64,000 nucleotides of DNA. Source: Hyphomicrobiaceae bacterium. GTDB lineage: Bacteria; Pseudomonadota; Alphaproteobacteria; Rhizobiales; Hyphomicrobiaceae. Numbering within the stretch: position 1 is the first letter of the stretch; every line of letters starts with the position of its first letter. Both the position numbers and the translations under genes were made by a program. The notes under the pieces are model-generated. The model did not search any database. It saw only the letters and a list, made by a program, of their open reading frames with translations, and was not told the origin of the DNA. Shown here piece after piece: positions 54,167-64,000 of this stretch. The stretch covers positions 23,105 to 87,104 of the forward strand of contig PKEY01000070.1 in NCBI GenBank assembly GCA_002919265.1. The letters are read 5' to 3'.

Positions 54167-54655
54167 GTGACCAAGTCAGCCGAAGCCTTCCGAACAATCA
54201 GCGAGGTTGCGGAAGAACTGGACGTTCCGAAGCACGTCCTCCGGTTCTGGGAGCAGAAGTTCCCCCAGATCAAGCCCATGAAGCGCGGGGGCGGGCGCCG
54301 GTACTATCGTCCCGAGGATCTCGATCTGCTGCGGGGCATCCGGCACCTGCTGCATCTTGAGGGCTACACCATTCGCGGCGTGCAGAAGATCCTGCGGACG
54401 CATGGTGTCGAGCAGGTCAAGCGGTGCTGGATGGAGGGATCGCAGATCTCTGCGGTTGACGCCGGTGAGACCGCGAAGGGCAAGAAGAATCGGAAGACAA
54501 GCAAGACCGCGGCCAAGAGCACGCCCGCGCAGCAACTCCCTCCCGAGGTGGTTCAGATCCTGCGCAACGCCCTTGAGGAACTAGAGGCCTGCCGGCGACT
54601 GCTCTCGAATTCCGCGCCGGTTGCGACTCCGGCGGCACAAAGCGCAGAGCCGTGA
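54167..54655 (+). CDS. MerR family transcriptional regulator
   Basis: [56 protein letters not shown]. Confidence 0.94.
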
Positions 54656-55404
54656 GTGCAGGCACCGAGCCGGTTGAGGTCTGGCTCGTCGATCTGGCTC
54701 GCGCGGCGCCCAGTCTCGCTGCGGCGGAAGCTGCTCATCCCCGACTATCAACCGATGAGCTCGATCGCGCGGCAGCGATGGGCGAGAGTGGGGAGGATTG
54801 GCGCCTCTCCCGGATCGCTCTTCGCATCGTTCTGGAACGCGTCGTTGGGAGCCAACTCCGCGAGCAGCCGTTCCGGCTCTCCTCTCGCGGCAAGCCCGCC
54901 TTACCATGGGACGCGGGCATTGAGTTCAGCCTTTCTCACACGGGGCAGTATGCGCTGATTGCCGTAGCGCGGAAAGCCGTGGGGGTTGATCTCGAGCAGG
55001 TTCGCCCGGTGCGTTTCCCGCCTGATCGGCAGCAGGCTATGCTAGACGCGGCGCGGGCCCTTGTTGGCTCCGGGCCAATCGACTTTTTGCAGGCTTGGGT
55101 GAGGCTCGAAGCCTGGGCGAAGGCGCGCGGCTCGGGAGTTGGCGCCCTGCTCCATGACATCAGCATCCGCGGCCCGGGCTGGGAAGCGCACACAGCCCAG
55201 AACTTTGGCGCCATCGCTGCCGAACGCCTGCGGGCCGAAGGCTTCACAATTCAGGATCTCGACTTGCCGGCTCCCTTCCACGGTGCCATCGCCATCAACG
55301 CCAGCCGGGTACACCTACATCTACGACATTTCCCGGCCCATATGGGTAGTATCGATGACCTCGAGGCCCCTCCTGCGGCTCTCCTTGCCAAATCGGCGGG
55401 TTGA
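54652..55404 (+). CDS. 4'-phosphopantetheinyl transferase superfamily protein
   Basis: [42 protein letters not shown]. Confidence 0.92.
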
Positions 55405-55439
55405 CCTTGGGCGGCGGTCAGGGCAAAAGGGTGCCTCGG

Positions 55440-55517
55440 CGGAGCGTAGCGCAGCCTGGTTAGCGCACCAGTCTGGGGGACTGGGGGTCGGGAGTTCAAA
55501 TCTCCCCGCTCCGACCA
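55440..55517 (+). tRNA. tRNA-Pro (anticodon GGG), CCA encoded
   Basis: Cloverleaf: acceptor CGGAGCG/CGCTCCG, anticodon stem CCAGT/ACTGG with loop CTGGGGG, T-arm GGGAG TTCAAAT CTCCC, CCA end. Confidence 0.95.
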
Positions 55518-56046
55518 TAAAAAGCCGCGTGAAGCAGAAGCGATAGAAGCGGGACAACTGCAGTACCCGCTACTTTTTCCGATCCACTCATGTATCTGGT
55601 CGATGCCTTCTTCCCGCTACGCTCGACGCGTCGGCTTGCTCAACCGATTGCGCGTCAATTCTCTCGCCTCGGCTAGTGTCGAGTGCCGAATCGTTAGCAG
55701 GAATACGATTCCTTGAGGATTGGGCGCGCGCCCCAAGATGATTTTCATCGCCGATGGTCACTGCTTAAGCATTTCGGCCGGTGGCAGCACGCGACACTGA
55801 ACAGCAGCTTCAACCCGATCCACTAACATACTGAATTCGTTTCATTTCCCCTTCAGAAGCGATGTATTGCTGCAACAACCGAATTGTTGCATGCTTTCTA
55901 CAGTTAACAGAATATCTCTATTCATCCTATTCATCATATGGCGTGTACCGATCAAATTATGCAACGTATGCGCGTGTTCAGAGTACTGACTGACGTATGT
56001 CTGATTTGTTCCGCGTGCTGCCGGTTTTAATAATTCGGAGCCGATA

Positions 56047-56298
56047 ATGCGCATTTACGCAGCACCCACGCTTACGCGACAAGAGTCGCTGCCAGTTGTC
56101 ACCGCGACTTATGTCAGCCCGTTTGATGTTGGTCCCAACCCCAATAACCCGGGCAACCCAGGTAGCCCGGGCAGTCCTGGCGGGCCTGGTCCGGGCGGAC
56201 CGGGTGGTCCTGGTGGGCCTGGCCCGGGTGGACCGGGTGGTCCTGGTGGACCTGGTCCCGGCGGACCGGGTGGTCCTGGTGGGTTTTTTGGTGGATAA
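56047..56298 (+). CDS. small protein with conserved leader ([26 protein letters not shown]) and collagen-like Gly-Pro tail; RiPP-precursor-like
   Basis: RBS-like cggag upstream; 26-aa N terminus shared with 56694 gene; fits YxxPxLxxx(E)xxxxxT leader pattern; followed by intrinsic terminator. Confidence 0.7.
56188..56283. repeat. 33-bp tandem repeats (about 3 copies) coding [11 protein letters not shown]
   Basis: ggtccgggcggaccgggtggtcctggtgggcct x3 with a few substitutions. Confidence 0.9.
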
Positions 56299-56336
56299 AG
56301 CGGCAAATTTGGCCGATCGTCTACTCACTACCTTTG

Positions 56337-56366
56337 CCCCGGCGCTCTTCGTGCCGGGGTTTTCTT
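56337..56366 (+). terminator. intrinsic terminator after first small leader gene
   Basis: ccccggcgctcttcgtgccggggttttcttt. Confidence 0.85.
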
Positions 56367-56693
56367 TCGACGAGAACCGCTTCACTTACCGCCTGAAATA
56401 CTTGGCAATTTGAAGCAGCGACCGGCTGTCGACGACCTCTGGCGGCGGACCTGCTAGTGAACAATGCCTGTCAGGACGGCGGGCACCTACCTACACTCGC
56501 AAGCGAAGTATTCGCTTAAAAGAGCAGCCACAGAAAGCGTAGGGCTTTGACGCCGTACAGGGTGCTGTTGCCCCATTTCCACATTGCACAGAATATCTGT
56601 GTTAAGACATTCTCTCCTATGGCGCACATAAAGAATAATGCAACGTACACGTGCGTTCTGCGTACTGCCAAATTTCAGATTTCGGAGATCAAA

Positions 56694-56891
56694 ATGCGCA
56701 TCTACGCAGTACCTACGCTGACGCATCATGAATCGCTGGCATCGATTACGGCGACTCACGTTAGTCCGTTCTTGTTTACCCCTACGCCGGAACCGGAGCC
56801 GGAACCTAAAGATCCGAAGTTCCCACCACACCCACCGATTGGAGGTGGCGGTTGGCCGGGTGGGCTTGTCCCTCCCTTCAAGAAAATGTAA
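56694..56891 (+). CDS. paralogous small protein with same leader (MRIYAVPTLTHHESLASITATHVSPF) and a Pro/Gly/Lys-rich tail; RiPP-precursor-like
   Basis: RBS-like ggag upstream; leader and 5' region homologous to 56047 gene; own terminator. Confidence 0.7.
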   Translation: MRIYAVPTLTHHESLASITATHVSPFLFTPTPEPEPEPKDPKFPPHPPIGGGGWPGGLVPPFKKM

Positions 56892-56909
56892 AGGCTTCCG
56901 AGAAGCTCA

Positions 56910-56941
56910 CCCCGGCCCCCATGGCGCCGGGGTCTTTTTAA
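56910..56941 (+). terminator. intrinsic terminator after second small leader gene
   Basis: ccccggcccccatggcgccggggtcttttta. Confidence 0.82.
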
Positions 56942-57011
56942 TGCGCAATTTCGAGCTGATGCTTACGCCTTTTGACCAATCTCGACTCTTTCACATTTTG
57001 CAATTACCGAT

Positions 57012-57575
57012 CTACGGCAACATCGCTTCTGTTTTAGCAAATCCATTTAACTCGAACGAAAAAGCAAGATCGCTGCCATCGCGCGCCTTGAGGGCAGCGG
57101 TCAGCTTTTTGCCCGCGCGCATCGCCTGAAGCCAAACCTTATCGACCAGCGCGCTGGCATAGCAGCCGTTGGCATCACAAGTCTGCCAAGTCAGCGTGCC
57201 GACTTCCTTGTCATCGACCAGAACCTTCACCGGATTCGGCAGGCTTACGCCGTGGGGAAGGATAAACACGGCATTTGTCTCCGGCTTCCTGGCAACGCGA
57301 TTGAACGATGCCGTCGCGATCCGCTGGCGCTGATTGCCTTGGCTCAAAACAAGGCTTTGCGAAAATTCACACTGCAGCTGATCCGGCTGCGCCTGATTGG
57401 AGCACGACGCCAGCCATAACGGCGCCTGCGGAGCGGAGCTCGCTGCGGGAGCTGGATTCTGCGCGGCTTGCTGAGGTTGAGCCGCCTTTGCCGGAGGTGC
57501 TTTGGTTTGCGCGGAGGCGACAGAGGCGCTGCAAGCGATCATTCCCAAGACAATCAGTGCGAACTGCCGGAACAT
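57012..57575 (-). CDS. invasion-associated locus B (IalB) family protein
   Basis: Signal peptide MFRQFALIVLGMIACSASVASAQ; PLWLASCSNQAQPDQLQCEFSQSLVL; QTCDANGCYASALVDKVWLQAMRAGKKL. Confidence 0.88.
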   Translation of the reverse strand: MFRQFALIVLGMIACSASVASAQTKAPPAKAAQPQQAAQNPAPAASSAPQAPLWLASCSNQAQPDQLQCEFSQSLVLSQGNQRQRIATASFNRVARKPETNAVFILPHGVSLPNPVKVLVDDKEVGTLTWQTCDANGCYASALVDKVWLQAMRAGKKLTAALKARDGSDLAFSFELNGFAKTEAMLP

Positions 57576-57597
57576 CAGTCTTTCTCTCGTCGGCTTC

Positions 57598-60500
57598 TCA
57601 GAAACGGATTGCAAAACTCACACTACCAGCGTGACCGACAGTGTCCTTACTCCACTGGCCCTGATAGCCGAAAGTGGCACGCGTCGTCTCATCCTTGTCG
57701 GAGATCGTCAGGCCGGCATCCAGCCGCCGGGTGACGTCGCCGATCTCGCTGTAGTTACGGAAAGTCCCATCCGACAGGCTGGCGCCGGCAAATGTTGCAT
57801 TGACATAAATATCATCCTTGTTGGCAAAGCTGACCTCGCCGCGCAGATAGGCCTGCATTCTCAGCTCGCTGTCAGTTAGCAAATCGACGCCGAGCTCGAG
57901 CGAAGGCGTAGCGGACAGCACCCATTGCCCTGTATCGCGCAGCTCCAGTCCGTAAACCGTATTCCGCTCCGAGGCATCATCCGAGCGGAGATACGTGGCG
58001 TCCAGGTCCAGGGCGGGGCGCAGGTAGAAGCTGCTGCCATTTGGCCTGTAGCGATAGCCAGTTCCCAGACGAATGTTGGCCTGATGCACACGCTGCTCAG
58101 CGTTAGCAATTCCCCCAATGACCGGGGTGCCTCCCGGCAGATAGCCGAAAATATCGATGAGACGCGTTGTGTCGTAACGCGCCGTGCTGCCGCTGAGAAT
58201 GCCATAGAACTCCCAGGGCCCGCTGTATTTCGAAACAGACAGCGCCATTTCACCCCGGTGACCTTCTGCCGAGAAAAGATCGCCGCTGGTAAGGCTGAAA
58301 TCCTCGAAACCGATGCCTATGCCGAAATAAAGATCTTCCGCCACCGGCGCGCGAATTCCGCCGGAAAAGCCGAACGACTTCGTTTCAAAATCACGGAACT
58401 CAAAGGAACCATCGCGATTTAGATTGCTCCCGCCACTAGCCACCCAATAGCAGGTGCGATTGTCACCAATCTTGGCAGCAAAGTTGGCATGGCCGCAGTC
58501 TGCCATGGTCCGCACAAAACGCTGGCCCGCATAGAACGCGTCTACCTGCGTTGCCGCATAATCCTGAGAAGCCAGTTGATCCACGGCGTAGGTGATCTGG
58601 TCTTGGTCCTCCATATTGGCGATGACCGCGAACACAGGCCCCATTTTGGCAGACCCCTGGCCTTCGAGCACTCGCGCCATGTGTTCCGCAGCGAGGGTTT
58701 GGTTGCGGTTCATGCCGGTCATCCGGTAGTCCACTTCAGGAATGAGCTTGATCGAACCGTCCTCGTTCAGACCGATCTGGTAGCTGATCACCGGCGTGCC
58801 GATGATTTCCAGCCCATTGTTGGTCGTTTTGCCACCCGCATGAATCAGGGTCAGTGGTTGCGCGCGCTCCAACAGATGGAGCACTGGCTTCAACGTTCCA
58901 TCCACCGTCGCATTTCCGCTAGCAATAATCAAATCGCTGCCTTCGGAACCGTTCTGGCGGAAATAGATGTCTGCCGTGTAGGTGGCGGTGGGACCGAAGA
59001 CGATCGAGCCACTCACATACGTGGTCTGGCTGACATTGCCCGTTACCGCAAAATCGGAAGCCTTTGTTTCGGGAGTAAGCGTGCCACTTGGCAGATAGGC
59101 CTCACCGCCCAGGTATAAATCGCCGTCGATACGAAACACCCCGTCTGATCCCAAATTGACATGGTCCTGGGCATAGAAGGAGGCACCCTGGGCGACCGTT
59201 ACCTCATTGGTTCCATCGCCGAGGTCGATGTTTCCGAGCGCACGGCCATAGAGAATAATACTATCCGAGCCAGCGCCGCCGCTGATAATCCGGTTATTGA
59301 GAGCAAACAGGAAGCTGTTGTTTGACAGCGTTACAGTATTCTCGACACCGCCATCGAGGAAAATAGCTGCGGGGCTTGTTGTGGTGCTCGCCATTGCAGC
59401 GAACAGAGAATTCGCCGACTCTTCGCTACCGCCAATGATGACGCCATCGAGCAAAATATGAATGTTCTCGCCACCATTTCCGCCGACGGATTGCGCCATG
59501 ACAGCGATGCTGCGCTCGCCGAGAGCGTAGATATTACCCTGCAAATCAAGATTGATGGCACCACCCTTGCCTTGCCCACCGGCGGTGCCACGAAACGCTC
59601 CATCAACTACGCCACCACCGCCGCCAACGCTTTGCGCCAGCACGCCTACGGACTCAGCACCGTAGGTGATGATGTTGCCTACGTTGATGAACGTGATGTC
59701 GCCGCCATCGCCAGCATTATCACTCGATAGCTCGACCTCAATATTGGCAGATGCCAGGTCCGTGCTGACGAAACCGCCACCACCGCCGATGCTTTGCAGT
59801 ACGAAACCATGCGACCGCGCTCCAGAGGTGGTCACATCACCGTTGTTGGTCACGTGAATGGCGCCGCCATCGCCGGAGGACCCATCACGGGCGCCGAGGG
59901 TGACCTTCGCGTAATCAAGCTCAGCAAAATCGGTCGCGCCGCCACCGCCGCCGATAGACTGAATGATGTAGCCGGTAGAGTTGTTTTTCTCTGTTGTAAT
60001 CCAACCTTTCAACTCAAGCTCGATGGAGCCGCCGTCATTCCGGTACGAAGGATCCGCGCCCAAAGAAACTTCAGCGCTTGCCGTTCCATCCCCACCTGAA
60101 AGCGCCAAGTACCCACCACCGCCGCCAATAGATTGGACGAGACCTCCGGCGGAAAAGGCATCGCTGGTGATAACGTTTCCTTCACGGCTTCCTTTGATTT
60201 GACCTCCTGATGCATCGTCCGTGTTGATCGCGCCAAGCATTGCGGTCACGGCCACATCCGTGTTCGCGGCCGAAACAACCGTCGCCGTTGTCGTACCGCC
60301 GCCACCGCCAATGCTTTGGAGCAATACGCCCGTTGAGAATGTGCCTTCGGTCCCAAGATCACCCTTGTGGTTCTGGCTGACCTCCTCACCTGCGCTCCCG
60401 TCGGCATCTTCGCTGCCAAGGTGAAGCTCACTGGCCACCGAAATAATTTTGCTAAATTCTGTATTCGAAAATGCTGCGATCCTGACTTGAGCAATTTCTT

Positions 60501-63500
60501 CGTCGGTCTCTGGGGTGACCTCTTCTTCGACGTTTTCCCCTGGCCTGGTGAAATCCAGAGAAATCTGAACGTTGCCGCCACCACCATTGACATTCTGCCC
60601 GAAAATGGCGCGGCTGCCAGTGCCGCTCACAATGATGTCGCCGCTGCTATTGACGGTAACCGTACCCGCCTTGCCTTTCGCGCCGTCGATCGCGCCGATC
60701 AATGCCGAGAAGGCATAATCGGCGGCCATGACTGCCGGAGTGGAAATTGAGAAACCGGCGTTGCCGCCTCCGCCAGCAACCGATTGGGCAAAAATGCCGT
60801 AGCTGTTGGAGCCCTGCACGTAAATGGTGCCAGTGTGATTTACGGTTACGTTGCCGCCATCCCCGCCCTCGCCGCGCACACCACCAATGGCAATCTTGGA
60901 GTAGCTTTTGCCGATAGCCTGCTCAGCAAGATGGTTCAGCGACAGCGCAACAGCGAGGCCGCCATTGCCACCACCACCACCGACGGACTGGGCAAAGACG
61001 CCGTAGGACTGAGCACCTGAAACCAGGATCGTTCCGGTGTTCGTGACGATGACATCACCGCCGGCATTACCATTGCCACCCATGCCGCCGATGTTCAGAG
61101 CAATATCCGGATCGCTACTTGAGCCGGTCCGGCGCAGAACTGCCGTACCCGTAATCGCATAACCACCGTTGCCACCGGTACCGCCAACGGACTGAGCAAA
61201 AATGCCGTGGGCTCTGTCGCCGCTTGTGAAGATCTCCCCGCTATTGGTGACAGTCACTGTGCCGCCGGTGCCGCCATCTCCACCGGTGCCTCCAATGCCA
61301 ATCTTGAAGCTGTGCTCTGCCTTGGCCGCGGTGCCTGGCTTGAGGAGAGAAAGCGAGAGTACATCGCCACCATTCCCTCCACCTCCGCCGACGGACTGGG
61401 CAAAAATACCGTGGCTTTCTGCACCTTCCGTGATGATCCTCGCGCCAGTCTCGTTGAGGATGGTAACATCGCCACCCCTTCCGCCGTCGCCACCTTCGCC
61501 GCCGATAAGCAATCCGTTCTTGGTGGTGTTATTGGCGTTAGAGCCGAGAAAGACGTTGCGAACTTGCTGAGCATCGCCGCCGCCACCGCCAACAGCCTGG
61601 GCAAAAATGCCGATCGCAGCGCGCCCATTGGTTTGAATTATGTTTTTGTTGGTTACGTTTACGCGTCCTGCGTCTGCACCGTCTTCGCCAAAGCCTCCAA
61701 TGGACAAGTCTGCAACATTGGGCGTTGAAGCACGAAGACCAATGACCTTGGTTTCGACCAGGCCGCCCATACCGCCACCGCCACCGACCGTCTGCGCCAT
61801 GATGCCATGCGCGTAGTCGCCGTTGGTGGTTATTGTGCCTTCGTTCACGACGGTGACATCGCCGGATCTCATGCCTTCACCGCCACGACCACCGACGTTT
61901 ATGGAGACCGTGGTGCCGACTTGGGAGCCAGCAGCGATATCCTTAATGAAGTCAATGATGCCGGTCCCGCCCTTCACATATCCGCCGGTGCCACCCGCAC
62001 CACCTACGGACTGTGCGAGGATCCCGATAGAACGTGCACCTCCGGTTATGATGTCAGCTTCGTTCCGAGCTTCGACCTGTCCTCCGACTCCACCCTTGCC
62101 GCCGGTGCCACCGATATTGAGCGAATAGGAGCTTCCCTTGGCGACCGAGCCGTCAACCCCGCCTCCTGTTCCGCCACCACCGCCAATCGACTGGGCAAAG
62201 ATAGCGTGCGCTTCTTCGCCGGCCGTGAGCAGTAACCCTTTGCCTGAGACGACTTTCACGTCGCCGCCTTCACCTCCTTCCGCGCCCTCCAGGCCGACGC
62301 GAAGTGCGAAATTGTCACCAGCGGTTTGTCCATCCTTGGGTTTCGTGAGGCTCAGAGAAATCGAGCTTGAATTACCGCCGCCTCCGCCGATGGATTGCGC
62401 GAAAAGCGCGTGCGAACGCGAACCCAGCGTTATGACGTTGCCGGAGGCGGTAATCGTAACTTTGCCTGCTGACCCGCCTTCTGAACCGACTCCGCCAACG
62501 GCAATGCCAATACTCGCAGTGTCGTCATCCGGCTTTACCCAGGTAAAGCCTGCGTTTCCACCCCCTCCACCAATCGACTGGGCGAAAATGCCGTAAGCGT
62601 CGTTGCCGAAGGTATAAACTTCCCCTCTATGTTGGACGCTGACGTCGCCTCCTTGACCGCCACTGCCCGATCCACCGCCGACGGCCAATGCCAAGCCGTG
62701 ATTTTGGGACGCCTGGCCGGTCTGGAAGATTAATCCCAGATTGACGTTCGCGTTGCCGCCGCCGCCGCCAACTGACTGGGCGAAAATGCCGTAGCTGGAA
62801 TCCTGCTTGGTACCGATGATCCCGAAATGCGTGACGTCAACCTTGCCACCGTCTCCCGCACTTCCGGCTGAGCCGCCAATGGCGATAACCGCCGTATTCA
62901 ACGGCTTATTGGCGCCGGAGCCGCCGCCCGCGCGAGTGTCCGCCTCGTCGATGGATTCCGTAATGTCCGAGACTACAGAAGGATCGACGTTGTCGTGAAC
63001 CGGCTCTTTCGGAACCTCTCCAGAGCCACCGCCAGAACCTGATGTCCTGCTGAGGCCAACGACCGCATTAACACCTGCATCGCCACCACCGCCGCCGATG
63101 CTGCTCGCCTCAATGCCGTGTGCGCCAATTCCGTCAGTAATGATTTCTTTTGTTTTTTCGGCCTCGGTGCCGTGCTGTACGGTCACATTACCCGCGTTGC
63201 CGCCGCCCTTACCGAAACCGCCGACGCCAAGTCCAAGGGGACTGTTATCCTTGGCGCCAATCGCAGTGACATTGATGCCGCCAGTGCCACCACCGCCGCC
63301 GACCGACTGGGCAAAAATCCCGCGCCCATGATAGCCGCGTGTGTAAATGTTGCCGCTGGAAACGACGCTAACGTTGCCGGCATTCGCTCCTTCACCACCA
63401 TGACCGCCGAGACCGGCAACGATGCTAAGGTCGGTTTTCCCGCCCGTCGCTTCAGAGCTTCCCCAGTTCAGCTGACCACTGACGTTCACCGCGCCATTGC

Positions 63501-64000
63501 CACCACCACCAGCGATGGACTGGGCGAATATTCCGTGCTTCCAGCTTCCTTCGACACCAATGTTGCCTTCATGATTAACGGAAACATTGCCCGCAACATT
63601 CCCGTCACCGCCAAATCCACCTATGCCAAAGGTAATCGATGGGATCTTCCCATCTTTGCTGATGGCAACGCCACCAGAAACATTGAGCCCGCCGTTTCCG
63701 CCGCCACCGCCAATGGATTGCGCTAGAATTCCGGCGGAGCCTAGAGTTTCAGGTGGATTGTCATCACCCTTAAAGAGGCCGAGATCGACAAAGAGAGTTT
63801 TCAAATTCCTCGATTCCAGAATCCCGTCGAGGCCATCCACAATCGTATTGCCGAGAACTTCTCGCAGCTTTTCCTCGAAGGCCTTTTCGTCGCTCGGAAC
63901 GGCGAAATCTGCGGGATCGGTCGTTACCGTGATATCGGCGCGCGTTTGGACGGATACACTCTTGGCGCTACCTCCTTTGTCGGTCATGCCGCCGACGCCG
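57598..64000 (-). CDS. giant autotransporter (Gly-rich repeat passenger plus C-terminal beta-barrel), N terminus outside window
   Basis: Repeated (I/V)(F/L)AQS(I/V)GGGGG; C-terminal autotransporter beta-domain ending ...AGSVSFAIRF; frame open through the window edge. Confidence 0.93.
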   Translation of the reverse strand, partial: GVGGMTDKGGSAKSVSVQTRADITVTTDPADFAVPSDEKAFEEKLREVLGNTIVDGLDGILESRNLKTLFVDLGLFKGDDNPPETLGSAGILAQSIGGGGGNGGLNVSGGVAISKDGKIPSITFGIGGFGGDGNVAGNVSVNHEGNIGVEGSWKHGIFAQSIAGGGGNGAVNVSGQLNWGSSEATGGKTDLSIVAGLGGHGGEGANAGNVSVVSSGNIYTRGYHGRGIFAQSVGGGGGTGGINVTAIGAKDNSPLGLGVGGFGKGGGNAGNVTVQHGTEAEKTKEIITDGIGAHGIEASSIGGGGGDAGVNAVVGLSRTSGSGGGSGEVPKEPVHDNVDPSVVSDITESIDEADTRAGGGSGANKPLNTAVIAIGGSAGSAGDGGKVDVTHFGIIGTKQDSSYGIFAQSVGGGGGNANVNLGLIFQTGQASQNHGLALAVGGGSGSGGQGGDVSVQHRGEVYTFGNDAYGIFAQSIGGGGGNAGFTWVKPDDDTASIGIAVGGVGSEGGSAGKVTITASGNVITLGSRSHALFAQSIGGGGGNSSSISLSLTKPKDGQTAGDNFALRVGLEGAEGGEGGDVKVVSGKGLLLTAGEEAHAIFAQSIGGGGGTGGGVDGSVAKGSSYSLNIGGTGGKGGVGGQVEARNEADIITGGARSIGILAQSVGGAGGTGGYVKGGTGIIDFIKDIAAGSQVGTTVSINVGGRGGEGMRSGDVTVVNEGTITTNGDYAHGIMAQTVGGGGGMGGLVETKVIGLRASTPNVADLSIGGFGEDGADAGRVNVTNKNIIQTNGRAAIGIFAQAVGGGGGDAQQVRNVFLGSNANNTTKNGLLIGGEGGDGGRGGDVTILNETGARIITEGAESHGIFAQSVGGGGGNGGDVLSLSLLKPGTAAKAEHSFKIGIGGTGGDGGTGGTVTVTNSGEIFTSGDRAHGIFAQSVGGTGGNGGYAITGTAVLRRTGSSSDPDIALNIGGMGGNGNAGGDVIVTNTGTILVSGAQSYGVFAQSVGGGGGNGGLAVALSLNHLAEQAIGKSYSKIAIGGVRGEGGDGGNVTVNHTGTIYVQGSNSYGIFAQSVAGGGGNAGFSISTPAVMAADYAFSALIGAIDGAKGKAGTVTVNSSGDIIVSGTGSRAIFGQNVNGGGGNVQISLDFTRPGENVEEEVTPETDEEIAQVRIAAFSNTEFSKIISVASELHLGSEDADGSAGEEVSQNHKGDLGTEGTFSTGVLLQSIGGGGGTTTATVVSAANTDVAVTAMLGAINTDDASGGQIKGSREGNVITSDAFSAGGLVQSIGGGGGYLALSGGDGTASAEVSLGADPSYRNDGGSIELELKGWITTEKNNSTGYIIQSIGGGGGATDFAELDYAKVTLGARDGSSGDGGAIHVTNNGDVTTSGARSHGFVLQSIGGGGGFVSTDLASANIEVELSSDNAGDGGDITFINVGNIITYGAESVGVLAQSVGGGGGVVDGAFRGTAGGQGKGGAINLDLQGNIYALGERSIAVMAQSVGGNGGENIHILLDGVIIGGSEESANSLFAAMASTTTSPAAIFLDGGVENTVTLSNNSFLFALNNRIISGGAGSDSIILYGRALGNIDLGDGTNEVTVAQGASFYAQDHVNLGSDGVFRIDGDLYLGGEAYLPSGTLTPETKASDFAVTGNVSQTTYVSGSIVFGPTATYTADIYFRQNGSEGSDLIIASGNATVDGTLKPVLHLLERAQPLTLIHAGGKTTNNGLEIIGTPVISYQIGLNEDGSIKLIPEVDYRMTGMNRNQTLAAEHMARVLEGQGSAKMGPVFAVIANMEDQDQITYAVDQLASQDYAATQVDAFYAGQRFVRTMADCGHANFAAKIGDNRTCYWVASGGSNLNRDGSFEFRDFETKSFGFSGGIRAPVAEDLYFGIGIGFEDFSLTSGDLFSAEGHRGEMALSVSKYSGPWEFYGILSGSTARYDTTRLIDIFGYLPGGTPVIGGIANAEQRVHQANIRLGTGYRYRPNGSSFYLRPALDLDATYLRSDDASERNTVYGLELRDTGQWVLSATPSLELGVDLLTDSELRMQAYLRGEVSFANKDDIYVNATFAGASLSDGTFRNYSEIGDVTRRLDAGLTISDKDETTRATFGYQGQWSKDTVGHAGSVSFAIRF
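59400..63750 (-). repeat. about 22 degenerate repeats (period about 50-75 aa) centred on IFAQS(I/V)GGGGGNGG in the autotransporter passenger
   Basis: Counted by eye in the translated frame, e.g. IFAQSIAGGGGNGAVN, IFAQSVGGGGGTGGIN, IFAQSVGGGGGNANVN, YIIQSIGGGGGATDFA, VMAQSVGGNGGENIHI. Confidence 0.85.

Follow-up and report, generated by a model that had tools for sequence, protein, structure and literature searches.

Two described groups of systems come closest to the system analysed here, which was traced from two small genes in a window of 64,000 nucleotides (the whole stretch of DNA that was analysed) from a Hyphomicrobiaceae bacterium. The first group is the linear polyphosphorylated peptides (LPPs) of Bacillota (Popov et al. 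2026, PMC13381572). LPP loci and the Hyphomicrobiales system have in common a YxxP leader, a discrete RRE, an HprK-like kinase, an NTP transferase, the absence of a cyclase, a conserved precursor N terminus followed by highly variable C termini, and an expected linear product. They differ in host (Bacillota and Hyphomicrobiales, respectively) and in the leader peptidase, which is SpI-like in LPPs and a lasso-type B2 here; B2 occupies the peptidase place in every Hyphomicrobiales locus. LPP loci have a fixed MsbA-like transporter, whereas none stands near the Hyphomicrobiales loci: a motif scan reaching about 8 kb from the RRE, and less far on one side at several loci, detected no ABC ATPase ORF in any of 15 loci. 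A further likeness is a Ser near the core start as phosphate site, Ser3 in LPPs and, as predicted here from the conserved position, the Ser at +4/+5. The LPP leader consensus YxxPxVLxHQxIxFETxxS (PMC13381572) is matched by the window family in its YxxP part only. In addition, the precursors here are dispersed and in arrays, and some loci have an acyl-ligase/GNAT/ACP trio. The Hyphomicrobiales system resembles an LPP in the way it would work, but we do not file it as one.

The second group is the phosphorylated lasso peptides (paeninodin and Bsf, and pseudomycoidin for the NTP transferase). Their systems have the same YxxPxL motif with Thr at −2, B1 RRE, B2, HprK-like kinase and NTP transferase. 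Unlike them, the present system has no macrolactam cyclase and no consistent ring residues, and its B2 falls in a separate clade. Apart from the LPP paper, we found no description of such a family in the literature searched.

Two leader-bearing genes in the window

The window contains two small forward-strand genes with a common leader, both of which had been picked out by a sequence-only reading of this DNA. Gene 1 (56047..56298) encodes 83 aa, a leader followed by a Gly/Pro repeat tail; gene 2 (56694..56891) encodes 65 aa, a leader followed by a Pro/Glu and then Gly/Pro tail. For gene 2, a TTG at 56547 would give a longer frame, but the start is placed at the ATG at 56694, which has GGAG just upstream. 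The N termini are 73% alike over 26 aa, while the Gly/Pro-rich tails are unrelated. Third codon positions account for 13 of the 20 differences between the two leaders and for six of the seven variable columns of the gene 1 tail repeat, a bias that supports the coding nature of both ORFs. Frames and ribosome sites are intact, and each gene is followed by a hairpin-T terminator of its own (forward strand), at 56336..56360 for gene 1 (fold −21.1 kcal/mol, z −5.5) and at 56909..56939 for gene 2 (hairpin 56909-56933 plus T run; fold −19.3 kcal/mol, z −2.8).

The 20-aa leaders (56047..56106 and 56694..56753, forward strand) contain the predicted RRE-binding motif, and the spacing Y-xx-P-x-L-x3-E-x5-T is, as had been claimed, exact in both, with Glu replacing Gly. 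The predicted B2 cut follows Thr-Ala; in gene 2 it would separate the leader MRIYAVPTLTHHESLASITA from the core THVSPFLFTPTPEPEPEPKDPKFPPHPPIGGGGWPGGLVPPFKKM. Cleavage at this site would place Tyr, Pro, Leu and Thr of both leaders at −17, −14, −12 and −2, in agreement with the published lasso leaders of Bsf (PMC10368454). YxxPxL together with Thr at −2 is exact in both window genes and in nearly all relatives. In a whole-genome search, the gene 1 leader recovers gene 2 at E 4e-7 and gives weaker matches on two other contigs; a profile search lifts the latter to E 1e-17 to 3e-21, these being seed sequences. Judged from these matches, the similarity of the two window leaders is not due to chance.

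Gene 1 and gene 2 are preceded by a common element, TATGGCG-N16-TGCAAC-N10-GTT at 55937..55978 and a version with a spacer of 14 at 56618..56657, both on the forward strand. The general pattern TATGGCG-N(12-18)-TGCAAC-N10-GTT has exactly three matches in the 3.44-Mb genome, one each ahead of gene 1, gene 2 and an orphan precursor on contig C113, and its reversed control does not occur there at all; since the pattern was derived from these three sites, the finding is its absence elsewhere in the genome. The upstream sequence of two further precursors, on contig C1, differs from this element, which suggests that the dispersed precursors are under separate control. No sigma-70 promoter was found ahead of the window pair.

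The tail of gene 1 had been described as collagen-like. It is not regular Gly-x-x: the repeat (56167..56283, forward strand; 33 bp or 11 aa, 3.5 copies, in frame) breaks the triplet register. The statement that the tails are not classical lasso cores stands, with Thr first in both, where a lasso core has Gly, Ala, Ser or Cys, and with Asp7 in copy 1 only. After Thr-Ala, 63 aa remain in gene 1 and 45 aa in gene 2, compared with a family median core of 11 aa. Because its tails are long, the window pair is an outlier of the precursor family, and both genes may have been co-opted or be in decay. Both genes retain Ser24 (core +4, in VSPF; codons 56116..56118 and 56763..56765, forward strand), the phosphate acceptor predicted from the conserved position.

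Directly upstream of the pair lie a gene for an Sfp-type PPTase (54652-55404) and tRNA-Pro(GGG), together within 54652-55517. A specific functional link between them and the pair was rejected, as fabH-ihfA-merR-PPTase-tRNAPro is syntenic in the related genomes G103 and G082, with no leader gene at that place; the ACP of the acyl trio may nevertheless be charged by this PPTase. On the other side, a secreted IalB-like gene (57012-57614) precedes a gene on the reverse strand (57598-63987) for an autotransporter-like protein of 2129 aa containing dozens of IFAQSVGGGGGN repeats.

Precursors and enzymes elsewhere in the genome

Five leader-bearing precursors are found in the genome, window pair included. 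Two are in tandem on contig C1, with cores QYYISPPYPDPDS and QYYISPPFPPPPPGDDGDDVGDDT; the C1 precursor MKRSYEAPRLTKHEQLAAITAQYYISPPYPDPDS has its Ser within YIS. The orphan on contig C113 has the core NECVSPFFQNCI. The C1 precursors adjoin genes for an ACP, a GNAT and an AMP-ligase and, divergently, genes for an RRE, a B2, an HprK-like kinase and an NTP_transf_5 protein. The RRE is a stand-alone PqqD/B1 protein (C1:63398-63679; PqqD match E 4e-14), and the B2 leader peptidase matches NF033537 at 54 bits (cut-off 33). It is therefore true, as the sequence-only reading had it, that the window itself has no B or C maturation genes; B1 and B2 are on another contig beside two precursors. The whole-genome search that it had proposed for RRE, B2 and cyclase yields the first two and no cyclase: in this assembly, 95% complete, the two Asn-synthase-family matches are MnmA and argininosuccinate synthase, and the lasso cyclase model NF033535 finds nothing.

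Other PqqD genes of the genome were rejected as partners, the one on contig C12 being pqqD beside a pqqE-like gene and the one on contig C9 belonging to a radical-SAM locus. The C9 locus (L012 675-3186) is a second RiPP-like locus, with a radical-SAM/SPASM protein, a PqqD-like ORF, a protease-like frame and a 243-aa protein containing three near-identical repeats NFQVRTGLSVPFSNYM.

The model of the kinase (pLDDT 72) matches PEPCK-fold kinases, the fold family to which HPr kinase belongs. The kinase retains H, SGxGKT and DD, the motif given for BsfK (PMC10368454). The HprK-like matches fall under curated cut-offs: for HPr-rel-A (TIGR04352/TIGR04353), the kinase reaches 32 of 200 bits and the PqqD protein 19.7 of 35 bits. 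B2 retains Cys72 and His109, and its model has no significant structural match. The RRE profile recovers TfuB1 and, weakly, TbiB1 from the PDB.

The nearest PDB relatives of the GNAT are RimJ/RimL N-terminal and polyamine acetyltransferases, a likeness that fits, without proving, acylation of the freed N terminus. The acyl-AMP ligase, ACP and GNAT of mycobactin synthesis, MbtM-MbtL-MbtK, form an N-acylation trio, and the same three enzyme types stand in a row here, a likeness of enzyme type. We rejected the acyl trio as part of the family core, as most loci found through GNAT are leaderless and many RRE-B2-HprK-NTP loci do not have the trio. Many alphaproteobacterial MAGs (L067, L070-L080, L082) carry ligase-GNAT(-ACP) genes with no RRE, B2 or leader, and the AMP-ligase matches near the loci of family f23 are acetyl-CoA synthetases.

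Distribution and sequence of the precursor family

Strong leader matches occur in three of the 104 genomes of the family, and all three have B2, compared with 7/104 overall (p 2e-4). In the order, the leader occurs in 14 of 398 genomes, every one of which has B2, compared with 26/398 overall (p 4e-19); the leader genomes are related, which inflates the p values, and span families f1, f15, f19, f20, f23 and f43. The query genome was the only one of a class-wide sample of 395 to match the leader at E 1e-4. Confinement of the leader to the source strain and lack of an RRE gene, the two findings that the sequence-only reading had named as counting against it, were both tested, and neither holds.

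The recurring core locus is RRE-B2-HprK-NTP. The C1-type locus is kept in G103 and G082 at 42–71% identity, and a GNAT-based scan of named genomes added two full loci, one from a Xanthobacteraceae MAG (L068), the other from a Rhizobiaceae MAG (L069); about ten precursors stand in tandem at each. Tandem arrays are common among the precursors, and so is a location far from the enzymes; in the single-contig genome G478, some 1.27 Mb separate the array from B2. A tree of 38 B2 proteins contains one clade (95/91) whose 20 members have no adjoining cyclase and share the signature MRDRxCLR...AHCWV; the B2s of the leader genomes are of this type. Outside this clade are the cyclase-adjoining lasso B2s and two cyclase-unlinked ones (G178, G424). 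Five f23 genomes have both kinds of B2, and G400 has only the lasso kind with a cyclase and no leader match.

Family cores are hypervariable apart from a Ser near +4/+5, their most conserved feature, which the sequence-only reading had passed over. Within tandem sets, leaders are far more alike than cores (0.88 and 0.33, respectively, in G478), L068 being the sole exception. Ser occurs at +3 to +7 in 76 of 82 distinct cores, with peaks at +5 and +4, compared with an average of 42 and a highest value of 56 in shuffles; this test is partly circular, as the profile columns extend into the core. A control with a leader-only profile gives Ser in 50/56 cores (shuffle mean 27, maximum 38), and the non-seed cores alone give a weak 20/22 (mean 14.4, maximum 21, 1000 shuffles). 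Cores are shorter than 30 aa in 81 of 86 unique precursors; the long ones are those of the window genes and of fusions to a Peptidase_S74 domain (84–130 aa). The fusions of the leader to this endosialidase chaperone domain occur in two genera (L057 6174-6491; L098; L109), the genomes concerned being G082 and G259.

Proposed maturation and its alternatives

We consider it quite likely that the window genes belong, as dispersed precursors, to a RiPP system that derives from lasso systems and has no cyclase. Its products would probably be linear and phosphorylated and form a previously undescribed peptide family, distributed patchily over one bacterial order. The earlier view of the leader as lasso-type and RRE-guided on non-lasso cores is borne out by the matching RRE and B2, the absence of a cyclase and the strict co-occurrence of leader and B2; strict lasso membership is not, as the cyclase and the features required of a lasso core are absent.

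Specifically, the stand-alone C1 RRE would bind YxxPxL of the leader, and the B2 cysteine peptidase would cut after Thr-Ala, releasing a linear peptide. Leader capture and B2 cutting are the best supported steps and appear highly probable. Phosphorylation of the core Ser at +4/+5 (Ser24 of gene 1 and of gene 2) by the HprK-like kinase is a step that we regard as likely, with less confidence than the former two. Further elaboration of that phosphate by the NTP_transf_5 protein, a reaction carried out by its relative in pseudomycoidin, is a guess, and so is acylation of the N terminus once freed, for which the AMP-ligase/ACP/GNAT trio next to the RRE would be responsible in the query genome and its nearest relatives.

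One alternative is that the leader is an address tag and that the targets of the enzymes are longer polypeptides of a structural or surface kind, modified at the N terminus, and not small natural products. Consistent with this are the S74 fusions in G082 and G259 and the long, repetitive, Pro/Gly-rich window tails; however, most precursors have the short cores described above, and no export gene lies beside the locus, so that we hold this alternative to be rather improbable. We give about the same modest chance to a broader version, in which RRE, B2, HprK and NTP (with the acyl trio in some genomes) form a trans-acting, genome-wide system that uses a portable leader to trim and decorate the N termini of many dispersed polypeptides, including long Gly/Pro chains and S74-domain proteins, yielding phosphorylated, perhaps lipidated linear products and not a single natural product.

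Slightly less probable still is that the window genes are decoys or decaying duplicates, whose leader and promoter were copied, whose tails are arbitrary and whose maturation is lost. The outlying length and composition of the tails point this way, as does a same-genus genome in which the orthologous pair is absent from the syntenic place. Against decay stand the bias towards third positions seen in both the leader and the tail repeat, the intact frames, ribosome sites and own terminators, the upstream element unique to three precursors, and the retention of Ser24 in both genes.

That the genes are true lasso precursors, with the cyclase elsewhere or missed in the draft, is very unlikely. The leader motif, RRE and B2 are all of lasso type, and the assembly is 95% complete; but NF033535 finds nothing in G231, G259, G338, G468 and the single-contig G478 either, all of which carry leader and B2, and absence of the cyclase from complete genomes led us to reject this identity. 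In other genomes, the cyclase-model matches that do not adjoin a lasso B2 lie far from the locus, look like asparagine synthetases and are weaker. Moreover, the cores have no consistent Gly1 or Asp/Glu at 7–9, and their length often falls short of what a ring and a threaded tail would need. A conserved N terminus with a variable tail could also stem from an ordinary known N-terminal domain, Sec/Tat or other, with no relation to RiPPs, but this is the least credible reading, as the leader has no hydrophobic stretch, the window ORFs match no Pfam family above cut-off, the nearest NCBIfam match of the leader is the lasso precursor model (below its cut-off), and the leader is strictly tied to RRE-B2 loci.

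The cyclase-less reading, which we prefer, provides more than 80 precursor sequences in which the proposed modification site can be tested. G400, which has neither this B2 nor the leaders, is a natural control, and genomes with a lasso system and this system side by side permit tests of leader discrimination. Tools whose searches depend on a cyclase or on an enzyme close by would overlook dispersed precursors such as the window pair. Cyclase-free lasso-derived RiPPs, described in 2026 in Bacillota, would thereby extend to Hyphomicrobiales, in a form that keeps the lasso protease and does not have the ring-closing enzyme.
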